Virus record (IMG/VR): IMGVR_UViG_3300032245_000466
Coordinates: 1-26,214 of that record
Origin: a virus
DNA: 26,214 bases
Reading direction: 5' to 3' (one strand)
The stretch's first letter is position 1. Each line of letters starts with the position of its first letter. Under the pieces are notes generated by a model. It was not told the origin of the DNA and ran no database searches. It saw only the letters and a program-made list of their open reading frames with translations. Both the position numbers and the translations under genes were made by a program. Below, in pieces: positions 1-5,002 of the stretch.

Positions 1-26
1 AAAGCCGCGGATTGTTTGTCAGCCAT
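1..26 (-). CDS. Start of a CDS cut by the left edge
   Basis: The minus strand reads ATG at 26-24 followed by codons for MADKQSAA, open to the window edge. A GAGG motif lies 8 bases upstream, which favours this ATG over the one two codons earlier (MPMADK), whose spacing would be only 2 bases. It lies about 30 bases downstream of the zinc-ribbon gene in the same direction. Its position after the terminase in a packaging-to-head order would suit a portal or another head gene, but eight codons cannot show this. Confidence 0.4.
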
Positions 27-58
27 AGGCATGCCCTCGAATGCGAAGGATTATGCCC

Positions 59-355
59 TCACTCACGGCGGCGGTCTATCCATTCCTGTACCGCCTCCAG
101 CAAGGCCTCGGCCTGCCAGTCAGCAATGTCTCCGGGGGCCAGGATCTCAAACCGGCCCTGACATTGACGCACAGTCACGGAGGGCACATCAGGGGCGACC
201 GTGACATCCCACAGCTCAACCAGTCCGTTCATTGGCATAGGAACCTCCCCGAGCTTCATTATTTCATACCGCCCGCAAGAGGTACAAGACCACCTGACCC
301 TTGCGCCAGTCAGATCTGCCTGAGAGAGTAATCCGCCACATTGACACTGCCTCAT
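59..355 (-). CDS. Small zinc-ribbon protein, 98 aa
   Basis: The protein begins MRQCQCGG and has a second knuckle CTSCG around residues 24-28, giving C4, C6, C24 and C27: a likely zinc ribbon. The remainder is a short beta-rich stretch and a helical, charged C-terminus (EALLEAVQEWIDRRRE). I chose the ATG at 355 over the in-frame GTG at 373 because AAAGGGG sits 5-6 bases ahead of the ATG. The gene follows a ~530-base stretch without convincing genes. Function is unknown; zinc ribbons in small phage proteins often mediate nucleic-acid or protein contacts, which is inference here. Confidence 0.7.
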   Translation of the reverse strand: MRQCQCGGLLSQADLTGARVRWSCTSCGRYEIMKLGEVPMPMNGLVELWDVTVAPDVPSVTVRQCQGRFEILAPGDIADWQAEALLEAVQEWIDRRRE

Positions 356-373
356 CGCGCCCCCTTTACACAC

Positions 374-756
374 TGGTGGTGGGAATCAGGCTCGGCTGGG
401 CAAAGAACTGCCTTCAGACACCCGAAGGTGCCATCCGGCACATTCCCACACTGTATGGAGCCAACCGAGTGTTCCGTATGGGAGCCGCCTCACTGCGTGT
501 TGAGCGACCCTCAAGGCTTTCCGGCACATCGCGCCGTCTTGCACAGCCCTTGATCCTGCCCCGCTACCCGGTGGACTTACACCCCCGGACAGGTCAGGAA
601 GACCCCTGTTTGCGCCTGCATCTTCTGTGCGCTCTCGCCCCAGATCAGAACGTTGTAGGCCCGGTGGACTGCGCCCTACGCCTTGCGGCTTCCTGCGCTT
701 CCCTCATGCCGGCCCATAACCCGATAGACCCCTAGGACAAGGTTGCGGCCACAAAG
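374..756 (-). other. Gene-free, highly structured region; possible extension of the ncRNA
   Basis: I see no convincing gene here. The minus strand contains a run of stable stem-loops: GCGC/GCGC enclosing GCC-GCAA-GGC (GNRA loop, about 701-676); TCTG/CAGA enclosing GC-GAGA-GC; GGTG/CACC with loop TAAGTC; TCAAGG/CCTTGA enclosing CGGCGC-GAT-GTGCCG; TCCC plus ACACT paired with AGTGT plus GGGA; GGCACC-TTCG-GGTGTC (UUCG loop); and GGCA/TGCC just before the zinc-ribbon gene. So many hairpins capped by classical tetraloops suggest a functional RNA. It may be read through from the promoter at 912-939 or be an independent element. Confidence 0.5.
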
Positions 757-858
757 CAAAAAACCCATTGGTGAACGAGCTTTAGGCTTGGTTGCCGCAT
801 ACAGGCCCGAAGGCACCGGAATCCTGTAGCTTTGACGAAGCCCGCTCACCAATGGGTT
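757..858 (-). terminator. Long-stem terminator-like element of the candidate RNA
   Basis: Bases 838-858 and 762-782 pair perfectly over 21 bp on the minus strand, allowing two G-U wobbles. TTTTTT follows directly at 763-758. The loop is unusually large (about 55 nt) but itself folded. It may terminate transcription, or the stem may be an internal helix of a longer RNA continuing to about 374. Confidence 0.55.
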
Positions 859-905
859 CGCGAGTGCGTTGTGCCTTAACTACGACGGGTTACCAATCCG
901 TCGAT
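757..905 (-). ncRNA. Candidate structured small RNA, about 150 nt
   Basis: The transcript is inferred from a strong promoter whose start should fall near 905 and an intrinsic-terminator-like T-run ending near 758. The 5' part forms CGACGG-ATTGGTAAC-CCGTCG. The body is closed by a 21-bp stem (838-858 with 762-782, two G-U pairs). Its large loop carries a second hairpin, TACAG/CTGTA with an inner GCC-TTCG-GGC. The 5' loop ATTGGT could also pair with ACCAAT in the terminator's 3' arm, so two folds compete. There is no significant reading frame and no tRNA cloverleaf. I cannot assign an Rfam family; large phage RNAs such as GOLLD are a candidate to test. Confidence 0.6.
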
Positions 906-911
906 GGCTGG

Positions 912-939
912 ATTATACGTCCTTGCAGTGCTGTGTCAA
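912..939 (-). promoter_or_regulatory. Near-consensus sigma70 promoter
   Basis: On the minus strand TTGACA (939-934) is followed by a 16-base spacer and a perfect TATAAT (917-912). The predicted start is around 905. It is the best promoter match I found in the window and points into the structured gene-free region rather than at a protein gene. The direct repeat GTGTTGA occurs just upstream and overlaps the -35. Confidence 0.75.
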
Positions 940-1037
940 CACCCATCAGCACATATCAACACCGACTATGCATATCGGCCCGACCTGTCTAATTTCGGGC
1001 GTTTTCTGTACAGGTCAGCTTCTTGAGATCGACTGTG

Positions 1038-1244
1038 TCATTCAGCCACCCAAACAGCTTTCCCGCCCGTTGGTTCAACGTCCTCGAACTTGAGGCGAAT
1101 GTATTGCTGACCGGGCACGCCTGCGGACTGGACGTAGCCCATGACGCCCCATTCTTTTGGCTCAGTGACAACAACGATGCAGCCTCCGAAAGTTTCGACA
1201 GACGGATTGACCTGCACCAAGTCGCCAAAGTTGTAGTTGCTCAT
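1038..1244 (-). CDS. Small beta-rich phage protein, 68 aa
   Basis: Starts MSNYNFGDLVQV with AGAAGG five bases ahead of the ATG. The alternating hydrophobic pattern (GGCIVVVTEPKEWGVMGYVQ, QQYIRLKFEDVE) predicts a compact beta barrel, and the -GDLVQV- opening resembles SH3-like phage proteins. It lies 33 bases after terL in the same direction. Function unknown. The 130 bases between it and the ncRNA start hold the promoter and two weak inverted repeats (GACCTGT 982-988 with ACAGGTC 1010-1016; CCGA/TCGG 962-978). Confidence 0.7.
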   Translation of the reverse strand: MSNYNFGDLVQVNPSVETFGGCIVVVTEPKEWGVMGYVQSAGVPGQQYIRLKFEDVEPTGGKAVWVAE

Positions 1245-1277
1245 AGGCCTTCTACTTTAACAGATTGGAAAAGACGA

Positions 1278-2699
1278 TCAGATGGCGTAGGGGTTCTCGC
1301 GCTTCCTGCCCCCGGCGTCGATCACATCGTCCTCGTCATAGTCGTCCGGGGCTGGGCCGTCAATGTCGATGAAGCCAGCATCCCGCAGGAACCGCAGGGC
1401 CTGGGTCGTGGCATCCACAAAGTCATCGTGGGTCGTGTCGGGGAAGGCGCAGAGCTGCGAGACCAGGGGCTCGGCCCAGTCCCGCACATAGCCTGGGCGC
1501 TGGCTGGACTCGGGTATCCAGACGCGGCCTCGAGCAAAGAGGGAGGACACGATGTTCAGGCGCTGCATCTTGTCGGCCTTGCCTGGGTTGTAGGCCCGCA
1601 CCGGCATATGCGCCCGCTGGAGGTCCTGGATCAGGCTGATGCCCGCGGACTTGTCCTCGATCAGGATCAGGTCCACGCGCTTTCTGTCCCGGCCTTCCCC
1701 GTAGACCACCTCGTACTCGTCCTGAACCTTGGGGCGCAGATCCGGATACTGGAGGCGATCCTGCCAGCAGTCCAGCAGCAGGGCAGACATCGGGCCGTCC
1801 ATGGGCTTGAAGACGCCCCAGGTCGTAGCCGCGGTGGGATCGTTGATGGTCTTCTCGCTGGTGGCGCAGTCGTAGGACTGGAGGATGTACTCAAACTTGG
1901 GGAACGGCTTGTCCACCGGCCAGAGCTTGAGCATGTCCCGCTTGACGATGCCAGCCTCCTCCGGATCAATGATCTCAGCGTAGATCTCCTGCCTGCCCAG
2001 CTTCGTCCCCTCGTACTGCAAGATTTGCTTTTGGAAGCTCGGGGCGAGGTTGGCAAGGTTGGCGTAGGTCGAGGCCGTGGTTAGGTGGACATCGTCGCCC
2101 TCCCGCCCCACCAGATCCACGATGAGGTCTTTCGGTTTAGGCGTGGTGGTGCAGAGGATGCGGGTTCTCTTGCCCAGGCGCACGCCGAACATGATCTGGT
2201 CCCAGGCGTCTTGCAGATAGTCCCAGGCGGCCAGCTCGTCGCACCAAGCCCCGTGAAACTGCGGCCCTCGGAAGCGCTCAGGCTCCGACGCAGGAATCCC
2301 CTTGATCAGGCTCCCGTTGATCAGCTTGAGCTCGTGGTAGGCCTTGTTGTAGTCCTCGATCAGGGCCTGGGGGATGATGTTGATCAGCCCCGAGTCACCC
2401 TCAAAGCAGGTGGCCCGAACGTCAGCAGAGGTAGGGGCAGCAACAAGCCAGCGGGTCCCTGGCTCCTTCCAAGCCCACCAGCCTACCTGCTCGGCAGCGG
2501 TTCGGGTCTTACCGGCGCCGCGGCCAGCAAGAAGCAGCCAGATCGTCCACCAGTCGCCGGAGGGCAGGATCTGGTGGTCGTGGGCTGTGGCAAGCCACTT
2601 GGAGCGCCACTCGAAGGCGGCACGCTCCTCAGCAGGAAGCAGGGCGTACTGGCGGCGGGTCTTTTCATCGCGCAGCAGCTCGAGCAGCGGGTCGCTCAT
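1278..2699 (-). CDS. terL: Terminase large subunit
   Basis: Motor and nuclease of DNA packaging, 473 aa. It translocates phage DNA into the prohead through the portal and cuts at headful or site. Walker A GRGAGKT is at residues 59-65, Walker B AWCDELA at 151-157 (D154, E155), and the coupling motif CTTTPKP at 183-189. The C-terminal RNase H-like nuclease shows QSYDCA with its acidic residue, LILIEDKSAG, and DFVDATTQALRF near the end. Length and motif order fit the Terminase_6-type family. The ATG overlaps the terS stop by four bases, so the two are translationally coupled. Confidence 0.95.
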   Translation of the reverse strand: MSDPLLELLRDEKTRRQYALLPAEERAAFEWRSKWLATAHDHQILPSGDWWTIWLLLAGRGAGKTRTAAEQVGWWAWKEPGTRWLVAAPTSADVRATCFEGDSGLINIIPQALIEDYNKAYHELKLINGSLIKGIPASEPERFRGPQFHGAWCDELAAWDYLQDAWDQIMFGVRLGKRTRILCTTTPKPKDLIVDLVGREGDDVHLTTASTYANLANLAPSFQKQILQYEGTKLGRQEIYAEIIDPEEAGIVKRDMLKLWPVDKPFPKFEYILQSYDCATSEKTINDPTAATTWGVFKPMDGPMSALLLDCWQDRLQYPDLRPKVQDEYEVVYGEGRDRKRVDLILIEDKSAGISLIQDLQRAHMPVRAYNPGKADKMQRLNIVSSLFARGRVWIPESSQRPGYVRDWAEPLVSQLCAFPDTTHDDFVDATTQALRFLRDAGFIDIDGPAPDDYDEDDVIDAGGRKRENPYAI

Positions 2700-3292
2700 T
2701 CCTTGGCCTGACGGCGGGTCTCGAGCGTGGTCAGCAGGGTGTCGAACAGGCTGATGTCTACCTGCGTCTTCAGGGGGTTCTCAGCATCCCCAGCCAGTTG
2801 CACCCGGTCGCCGTACCGCTTGGGGTTCCACTTGGCCAGCAGCTTGAGCTTGATGTCAGCCCTGGCCTTGATGAGCTGGACATAGCCAGAGTCCACCCGG
2901 CCACCCCCCTCGGACAGGATGCGCTCAGGCTCCAGGCAGGTCTCGATGTAGATCTCCTCAGCAATGGCGTCCTGGCCCATTTCACGAGCGCGTGCGATGG
3001 CTACGGAAAGACCGACCCCGGCATCCCCCAAAGCATCGTCCCTTGTCATCCAGTCGTAGATCGTCTGCCATGCTGGCATATCGTCGTCACGGCATATCTG
3101 GCGCAGTGGCTCCCCGTCAGCAAGACGCTCACAGATCTCTTGAGCGATCTCAGGGGTGTACTTAGATGGGCGTCCGGTCTTTTTGCGCGGCGCGTCCTTT
3201 GCAGACTCGGCAGCTTTGGCAATGGCCTCAGAAGCCACCTTTTCGGGCTTTTGGGGCGCTTTCTTGCGGCGGGAAGGGTTGGTGTCGGCCAT
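2696..3292 (-). CDS. terS: Terminase small subunit
   Basis: Recognises phage DNA and loads TerL, 198 aa. A lysine/alanine-rich N-terminus (1-38) precedes GRPSKYTPEIAQEICERLAD (about 40-59) and a helix-turn-helix (EPLRQICRDDDMPAWQTIYDWM). This is the signature of the Sf6-type terminase small subunit family. A helical oligomerisation region and a KWNPKRYGDRV motif follow. An AAAGGAG motif lies about 12 bases upstream of the start. It sits directly before terL with an ATGA overlap. Confidence 0.92.
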   Translation of the reverse strand: MADTNPSRRKKAPQKPEKVASEAIAKAAESAKDAPRKKTGRPSKYTPEIAQEICERLADGEPLRQICRDDDMPAWQTIYDWMTRDDALGDAGVGLSVAIARAREMGQDAIAEEIYIETCLEPERILSEGGGRVDSGYVQLIKARADIKLKLLAKWNPKRYGDRVQLAGDAENPLKTQVDISLFDTLLTTLETRRQAKE

Positions 3293-3308
3293 GGGTCAAA
3301 CGGCTCCT

Positions 3309-3476
3309 TTACGGGGAGTTTATAGCCTCCCCAGCTTTCTGGCAAAGAGTGCGGGCTAACTGACGCACCCTTTTGACCTCCGCCTCTGGCACCCACACCT
3401 CCAGCCGCACCAGCCCCAGCTTCTTTCGGCGCTCGCGTAGGGCTTGCTGGCGCTCTTTGAGTGTCTTGTCTGTCAT
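3309..3476 (-). CDS. 55-aa helical protein, possible ribbon-helix-helix
   Basis: A short gene ahead of terS, starting MTDKTLKERQQALRERRKK and ending AGEAINSP before TAA at 3311-3309. The N-terminus is a strongly basic amphipathic helix; the middle LGLVRLEVWVPEAEVKRVRQLA reads like a beta strand followed by helices, as in Arc/MetJ-type ribbon-helix-helix proteins. It lies 5 bases after the preceding CDS and 17 bases before terS. The coding frame uses ordinary codons throughout and fits a gap that would otherwise be empty. A DNA-binding role is inference. Confidence 0.7.
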   Translation of the reverse strand: MTDKTLKERQQALRERRKKLGLVRLEVWVPEAEVKRVRQLARTLCQKAGEAINSP

Positions 3477-3480
3477 AGTG

Positions 3481-4161
3481 TTAAATTTTAGCTGGCTGTT
3501 GGATCTTGTAGTCGTGAAAGACGGCGCCCTTGGTTTTGTCCCCTACTTCGCAGTTGGTGACCCAGACCTTCTTGCCGGACTTTTTCATCGTCCTCCAGTG
3601 CCCGCGGCGCTCATGCCACCTGGGGCTGGCGTGCGTACCCCCCAGGTCCGGGCCTCGAGGCTTTGCTGGCGCAATGGTGATGGTCGTCCAGTCGTAGGTC
3701 GGCACCTTGCCCTGGCGGAGCTTCTTCTCCCAGTTGGCCCGCTTGACCGGCAGGTACCCGGTGGCAGGAGTGGTCTCCAGGGACTCGAGGAAAGCCGCCA
3801 CGAAGGCCAGGACGCCGGTTGCGTGGCTGGTGCGGTAGTCAAAGGGACTGCCGTCCTTGTGCCGGACTTTGACTCCCCCCTCGTCCACTTTGTAGAAGAA
3901 CCCTGGGATGTCGTGGATCTTGGTCTTGTCCCACTGAAGCCCAGCCACCACGGTGAGCTCATCAACGCGGGAGACAAACAGCAGGACCTTCTTGTCCTCG
4001 TAGGCGCATACCAGCGCCGTCTGGGGGAAGGGCAGATCCCTGGATAGCACCTCGGCGTTGATGGCTTGCTCTCGCTTGTACGCGGCGCTCATGTCGAACC
4101 AGTGGTTCTCGACCGCGGCCTCCACGTTCATGGAGACCATCTCTTGGATGAGGGGGGTCAC
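3481..4161 (-). CDS. Conserved phage protein with histidine/arginine-rich C-terminus, 226 aa
   Basis: The N-terminal half is mixed alpha/beta (QTALVCAYEDKKVLLFVSRVDELTVV). The C-terminus has a distinctive stretch around residues 176-205: GGTHASPRWHERRGHWRTMK, then SGKKVWVTNCEVGDKTKG. The HASPR-H-RRGHWR motif recurs in uncharacterised phage proteins and looks like a nucleic-acid or metal-binding module; its role is unknown. The gene overlaps the upstream 85-aa gene by ATGA, showing tight translational coupling. Confidence 0.8.
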   Translation of the reverse strand: MTPLIQEMVSMNVEAAVENHWFDMSAAYKREQAINAEVLSRDLPFPQTALVCAYEDKKVLLFVSRVDELTVVAGLQWDKTKIHDIPGFFYKVDEGGVKVRHKDGSPFDYRTSHATGVLAFVAAFLESLETTPATGYLPVKRANWEKKLRQGKVPTYDWTTITIAPAKPRGPDLGGTHASPRWHERRGHWRTMKKSGKKVWVTNCEVGDKTKGAVFHDYKIQQPAKI

Positions 4162-4415
4162 AACATGCGCTCCTGATGTTTATCCATGTAGTCCTTCTTA
4201 AGCCACTCAATCCCGCCAACGAACTCGTAGACGTTGTGATGGGGGGAGAAACACGACATCCGGGTGCCGTCCGCGGCAAAGCCCATGCCGACAAAGCTGC
4301 GAAGGTTCCCGCTCTTGGCGTCCTCCAGCACAACCTCGAGCATCTTGACCAGCCCCTCGATGGGCTCTTGCTCGTGGAAGGGAACCTGCCCCGGGAGGGT
4401 TTTGATGTTGCTCAT
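4158..4415 (-). CDS. Hypothetical protein, 85 aa
   Basis: Starts MSNIKTLPGQVPFHEQEP; contains a helix (EGLVKMLEVVLEDAKSG), a glycine/phenylalanine strand region (RSFVGMGFAADGTRMSCFSP) and a charged C-terminus (EWLKKDYMDKHQERML). ATGA overlaps on both sides place it in the accessory operon. No recognised domain. Confidence 0.75.
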   Translation of the reverse strand: MSNIKTLPGQVPFHEQEPIEGLVKMLEVVLEDAKSGNLRSFVGMGFAADGTRMSCFSPHHNVYEFVGGIEWLKKDYMDKHQERML

Positions 4416-4720
4416 GCTTGCCCCCTAGCTCGGATGGCGGCAATACACTCGTCCGCGCCAACAAGATCCACGGCGTCGCAGGCTTTAATGCAGGCCTCGC
4501 GTTCGGCTGCCGCCCCTGCAATTACGCCTTCCATGTAGGCCTGCTCAAACTCGGCCTGAAGCTCCTCCCGCATATCCTTGGCAATTCCTACCACTCGCTT
4601 GCGCTCGGATGTGACAACTAGGGCGGCAAAGCGCTCGAGTTCCTGAACTGTTCGTTCAAACCCATCAGGCTTCCAACCGTTGGCCTTCTCGTACAAGCGA
4701 AGTATGTCGTCTCGGTTCAT
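4412..4720 (-). CDS. Small helical 'EREAC/AIRARG' family protein, 102 aa (copy 1)
   Basis: The start at MNRDDILRLYEKANGW matches the MxRDDI start of its paralogues; a longer upstream frame is low complexity and unlikely. The protein is nearly all helix, with ERFAAL, AAEREACIKACDAV and a C-terminal CIAAIRARGQA. The same segments recur at 5719-6087 and 6084-6305, so it is one of an in-window paralogue set. Its 3' end carries the nucleotide repeat CCCCCTAGCxCGGATGGCGG. Function unknown. ATGA overlap with the 85-aa gene. Confidence 0.78.
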   Translation of the reverse strand: MNRDDILRLYEKANGWKPDGFERTVQELERFAALVVTSERKRVVGIAKDMREELQAEFEQAYMEGVIAGAAAEREACIKACDAVDLVGADECIAAIRARGQA

Positions 4721-4721
4721 C

Positions 4722-4985
4722 TCAGGCCTCCGGGTTGAATTCAGGATCGACCAGCATGCCAGCCCCACGCAGGGCGTGGACCACCTTGGCGGGCAGATAG
4801 TCGCCGGTGCCGTCGTAGTCCGACAGGGCGAGCTTGCCGCCGTACTCAACGAACCAAAGGCCGCCGCCCTCGACGCCGTTCTTGTGCTCCCAGTAGCCGT
4901 ACTTGGCCGCGGGGTCCACCCCGACAACCCCCAGATCAGGGCCGTCACCGTAGGGCTTGAGGTTGATGGTGTAGTTGTATTTCAT
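4722..4985 (-). CDS. Hypothetical protein, 87 aa
   Basis: Starts MKYNYTINLKPYGDGPDLGV with GGAG nine bases upstream, which sets the start against longer in-frame alternatives that run into low-complexity sequence. Aromatic, glycine-rich strands (KYGYWEHKNGVEGGGLWFVE, YGGKLALSDYDGTGDYLP) suggest a small beta fold. It ends 1 base before the next start. No known family. Confidence 0.72.
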   Translation of the reverse strand: MKYNYTINLKPYGDGPDLGVVGVDPAAKYGYWEHKNGVEGGGLWFVEYGGKLALSDYDGTGDYLPAKVVHALRGAGMLVDPEFNPEA

Positions 4986-5002
4986 GGTGGTTCTCCAGAT
5001 GA

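Follow-up and report, generated by a model that had tools for sequence, protein, structure and literature searches.

The 6S RNA of phage lambda at pR' combines a strong promoter, a short RNA, a terminator and further sequence downstream. GOLLD and ROOL, which occur in phages and in environmental sequence, are RNAs whose structures have been described (PMC12286853). The put RNA of phage HK022, a structured phage RNA near an early-gene promoter, acts in cis and suppresses termination (PMC9378689). Conserved structured RNAs common to many phages are few, and those that were studied revealed new biology. Here we describe RNA1, which is almost certainly a real conserved RNA gene, in a stretch of 26,214 nucleotides of viral DNA (IMG/VR record IMGVR_UViG_3300032245_000466, positions 1 to 26,214; hereafter the window), together with its partner element RNA2. 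All features of the window given below lie on the minus strand.

Promoter, extent and fold of RNA1

A sigma-70 promoter, TTGACA-16-TATAAT, was located at 912..939, as had been stated in the first-pass annotation. Its boxes (TTGACA at 939-934, TATAAT at 917-912, spacing 16) matched the consensus at 12 of 12 positions, and no other site in positions 1-5000 exceeded a score of 9. The promoter was retained in relatives of RNA1. At least 10 of 12 matches were found in 71% of the sequences of family A and 59% of those of family B (see below), compared with 1-3% of shuffled upstream sequences. The predicted transcript of about 148 nt spans 758..905, with the start placed from the -10 box and the end from the U-tract, while alignment A1 and model R1 of family A matched the window at 759-907 with 155.5 bits. 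The ORF listing gave no convincing reading frame filling 374-1037, in agreement with the annotation, and single-nucleotide indels distinguish the homologues (their arms are spaced 79, 80 or 81 apart), which disfavours a coding reading. Upstream of RNA1 lie an ORF of 68 aa (1038..1244, phrog_19062) and the gene for the terminase large subunit (1278..2699).

The fold of 166 nt had a free energy of -76.1 kcal/mol (z = -5.6), and none of 200 shuffled sequences folded as low. The sole inverted repeat of at least 12 nt found in 1-1300 has arms of 21 nt at 762-782 and 838-858, which are 90% complementary and 55 nt apart. Together with T6 at 763-758, two of which are also counted in the stem, it is the 21-bp stem ending in six T that had been annotated. 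The described order of a hairpin followed by a stem held for the first hairpin, P1, but no simple stem follows, since two more hairpins lie inside the long stem P2. The predicted architecture of RNA1 thus consists of P1, a pseudoknot PK1, the closing stem P2 running into U6 and doubling as a terminator, two inner hairpins (P3 and P4) and a loop-loop contact, PK2.

P1 (883..903) has six pairs, all with double changes among relatives, and 99.2% of its alignment cells are paired; its loop UUGGU (896-892) forms one side of PK2. The 5' strand of PK1, AAGGCAC (871..877), is complementary to GUGCCUU (816-810), and all six PK1 pairs are double-changed in the family. This 3' strand is the loop of P3 (800..828), a hairpin with 98.2% of cells paired and four of five pairs double-changed. 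P4 (785..796, GGC-AACCAA-GCC) is invariant in family A, and its loop ACCAA (792-788) supplies the second strand of PK2, which changes in concert between families. The 5' arm of P2 (838..858) is the inverted repeat already mentioned, of which the inner part was counted in family A, while P2 was counted in family B. The 3' arm (782-762) and the U-tract (763-758) make up a terminator-like element (758..782), and stem and U-tract are retained in both families.

Relatives and covariation in family A

Family A was collected from IMG/VR by searching with one stem arm, where many matches held a single arm, and then with the conserved inner sequence GTCAAAGCT...GGCAACCAAGCC. Of the 100 loci obtained, 82 were distinct. 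Filtering at 95% identity left 66 representatives in alignment A1. Beyond the search patterns, the members had the promoter, P1, the inner junction and the U-tract in common. The P2 arm read AACCCATTGGTGAGCG in some relatives and AACCCTTATTGAAGGAGCG, GAACGCCCTAATAAGGTGG or GAATCCCTACTGAGG in others, with the opposite arm matching. Despite differing letters, the 6-7 nt after P1 were complementary to the P3 loop in almost all sequences; L169 was the one clear exception. Overall, 95.9% of the cells were paired and 326 were double-changed, compared with 92 in shuffles, and pairing collapsed once the partner strands were slid. The proposed check for stem-compensating substitutions in homologous loci was thus borne out, with double changes far above the shuffled level. 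About 40 columns are invariant, many of them in P4 and the junction, and each of 20 phage records carried one copy of RNA1. The covariance model also found the diverged loci L064, L066 and L074, plus a weak match to L034; the E-values of such models are rough.

The annotation had proposed that the phage makes a dedicated RNA of about 150 nt, perhaps with a role in packaging or late expression. The first part, including a promoter and a terminator of its own, has strong support from the compensating changes in relatives; the pseudoknots, the sister families and RNA2 go beyond what was annotated. The packaging role had rested on the neighbouring terminase and found no support, as a large terminase was nearby in only 8 of the 82 distinct family-A loci.

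Families B and C and their exchange at one site

Some 180 distinct relatives of RNA1 were found in environmental phage sequences, 82 in family A and at least 98 in family B. Family B came to light in L015 and L075, where it follows the terminase, through a screen for a promoter combined with a long stem and a U-tract; a scan for the conserved P4 then gave at least 120 stretches, and parsing these left at least 98 distinct sequences. Its parts are P1, PK1 of mostly at least 9 bp, P2 running into a U-tract, P3, and P4 with the loop CGCCA. In alignment A2 of this family, 97.6% of the cells were paired and 321 double changes were counted against 97 in shuffles, a count that excludes P1, which is shifted by 1 nt between subgroups. 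The 3' arm of P1 in family B can also extend PK1 (columns 23-25 of A2 with 120-122), with covariation, a possible conformational switch. Family C consists of L034, L394 and L395, in which the superfamily features were judged by eye. The whole set of these features, namely promoter, P1, PK1, P2 into a U-tract, P3, P4 and PK2, was found in families A and B.

PK2 reads UUGGU:ACCAA in family A, UGGC:GCCA in family B and UGACG:CGUCA in family C. Within family B it does not vary, and within family A hardly at all, so that the support for PK2 comes from the change between families. MW202426.1 and L044 appear by eye to hold further RNA1 variants with another pairing of the PK2 kind.

L002-L005, L015, L034 and L075 have terminases with 76-100% identity to the one in the window, and behind these homologous genes RNA1 belongs to family A in L002-L005, to B in L015, to C in L034 and to B in L075. 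That the three families exchange at one genomic place points to a single function.

In close family-A pairs, PK1 differed at 53% of sites compared with 6.5% elsewhere, whereas in family B changes were found at 13% of PK1 sites and 48% of sites in the upstream spacer. Since family-B PK1 changes less than the spacer, its variation requires only that pairing is kept while the sequence is free. A fast-changing self-recognition code in PK1 was considered and rejected, as the family-B rates left no need for it and the set was also identity-filtered.

Genomic neighbourhood

Frequent neighbours of family A were early genes, including ParB-like, helicase, primase, exonuclease, Erf and RuvC genes, in a sample in which many loci are contig fragments. 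In six scanned relatives, tRNA genes lie close upstream of RNA1 (L124 3478-3552, L139 1419-1492, L220 2959-3033, L198 8106-8182, L225 2914-2990 and L174 167-243). MW202545.1 (L268 6050-6720, minus strand) has a run of tRNA genes behind a primase-like gene, and the same place in MW202426.1 is occupied by an RNA1-like element and RNA2. Because of these upstream tRNAs and the tRNA run replacing the RNA1-like element and RNA2, the position of RNA1 seems to be a site for stable RNAs. Another long stem, closed by T8 around a small inner domain and with no match to the RNA1 models, was seen on the plus strand of L249 at about 19568.

RNA2 and the gene behind it

Directly behind the U-tract of RNA1 lies a second structured non-coding element, RNA2 (377..754). 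In 13 sequences of the window's type, 31 of 58 predicted pairs showed compensatory changes. RNA2 followed RNA1 in the great majority of the loci examined, and promoter-like sites within it were found in 7 of 219 stretches. RNA2 occurs in several types, the heads of which are common to families A and B: GTACTCC was found in 16 family-A and 14 family-B loci, GTCAGGGC in 18 and 8, and ATGCGGTACG in 3 and 83, respectively.

A phage-specific repeat was associated with RNA2. In 64 of 75 distinct loci, the stretch after GGCTCC shared at least 7 nt with the sequence behind the RNA2 3' end (CACCA), compared with 11% of mismatched pairs. In the window this pattern was read as CAGTGTG inside RNA2 (447..453) and again just behind its 3' end (369..375); the script missed these two copies, having taken an earlier GGCTCC. 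A search for a complementary partner, or complementary third copy, of the 7-nt repeat found none, and a search for further copies of PK1 in RNA2 found no excess. The ORF behind RNA2 (59..355, start ATG at 355, in frame with ORF 59-373) encodes a small CxC/CxxC protein that looks zinc-ribbon-like by eye, and similar ORFs lie behind RNA2 in family-B loci.

Searches for known RNA families

Searches with Rfam 15, which cover GOLLD, ROOL, phage pRNA, 6S, tmRNA and other families, gave no match at gathering score in the window, none of note in 374-1000 at E up to 10, and, with E allowed up to 1, none to RNA1 or RNA2 in 23 relatives, so that the Rfam search suggested for this region ended without a known family at either element. 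A SymR-like match in L313 (1048-1118) reached 41.2 bits, under the gathering score of 61. ARAGORN found no tRNA or tmRNA in the window. By blastn against annotated phages, RNA1 was not found and RNA2 sequence was found in MW202426.1 only. The RNA1 models did not match any of about 700 bacterial genomes in a search run without a positive control, and five bacterial pattern matches, which lacked the RNA1 structure, were discarded as apparent chance. No description of RNA1 or RNA2 was recognised in the open literature, most subscription papers lying outside its coverage. RNA1 is a new family of structured phage RNAs absent from Rfam 15, a claim that rests mainly on Rfam because literature coverage was partial.

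Possible function of RNA1

Comparison among relatives demonstrates conservation of the predicted architecture, the promoter and the terminator-like end, and we infer from these sequences that RNA1 is transcribed and released as such. We give about an even chance to RNA1 being an independent, self-terminating phage RNA that acts in trans. RNA polymerase would start at the near-consensus sigma-70 promoter, and the RNA would fold during its synthesis. P1 would form first, followed by PK1, in which the P3 loop takes part, and finally by P4, together with the contact that it makes to the loop of P1. P2 and the U-tract would end transcription and a compact RNA of about 148 nt would be released. The free RNA would most likely bind a host or phage protein or ribonucleoprotein, with the near-invariant bases of the junction and of P4 making the contact. 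Action in trans is supported by covariation in two families with controls, by the promoter and terminator-like end kept in both, by the invariant columns, by the family exchange behind homologous terminases and by the single copy per record. It is weakened by the presence of RNA2 behind most copies of RNA1 with few promoter-like sites of its own, which fits a role in cis better. RNA1 might then be a leader, either a regulated terminator or a put-like element that gates polymerase into RNA2 and the gene behind, and we regard this as the main alternative, though a less likely one. The position of RNA2 directly behind the U-tract, the same RNA2 heads behind families A and B and the possible switch between P1 and PK1 in family B point in this direction as well; however, no antiterminator pairing that could replace P2 was seen, and P2, a long stem, was present in all the examples that were folded. 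The trans and cis readings could both hold in part.

A packaging RNA like the phi29 pRNA is very improbable. In the window and the relatives closest to it, RNA1 does follow the terminase, and loop-loop contacts could in principle join molecules, but few family-A loci have a large terminase nearby and Rfam gave no match. We equally consider it highly doubtful that RNA1 is a mere insulator, a promoter and terminator between transcription units with an RNA that has no function itself; P2 with its U-tract is well suited as a terminator, yet two pseudoknots and so many invariant columns would be superfluous for insulation. More speculatively, and on balance unlikely, RNA1 and RNA2 may form a widespread two-RNA phage system, in which the double-pseudoknot RNA1 with its exchangeable families gates or partners the larger RNA2, and RNA2, with a guide-like copy of 7-8 nt of its own 3' flank, acts as a guided device or a switch on this flank. 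The fold of RNA1 can be tested, its families substitute for one another at one place, and its partner RNA is unexplained. With the RNA1 models, such loci can be recognised in culturable phages, where function is directly testable.

Comparison with known RNAs

GOLLD and ROOL are both far larger than RNA1; they resemble it as structured RNAs of phages and environmental sequence but differ in size, and Rfam gave no match to RNA1 or RNA2. The phi29 pRNA, also from a phage, resembles RNA1 in size and in having loop-loop contacts, and RNA1 adjoins a terminase in the window, whereas RNA1 has no Rfam match and most of its relatives lie away from terminase. The HK022 put RNA and RNA1 are both structured phage RNAs close to a promoter, but RNA1 ends in its own terminator-like stem, and for it action in cis is only the alternative reading. 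The lambda 6S RNA is similar to the RNA1 locus in its strong promoter, short RNA, terminator and downstream sequence; in contrast, RNA1 has a conserved double-pseudoknot fold and stands here without an identified antiterminator protein.
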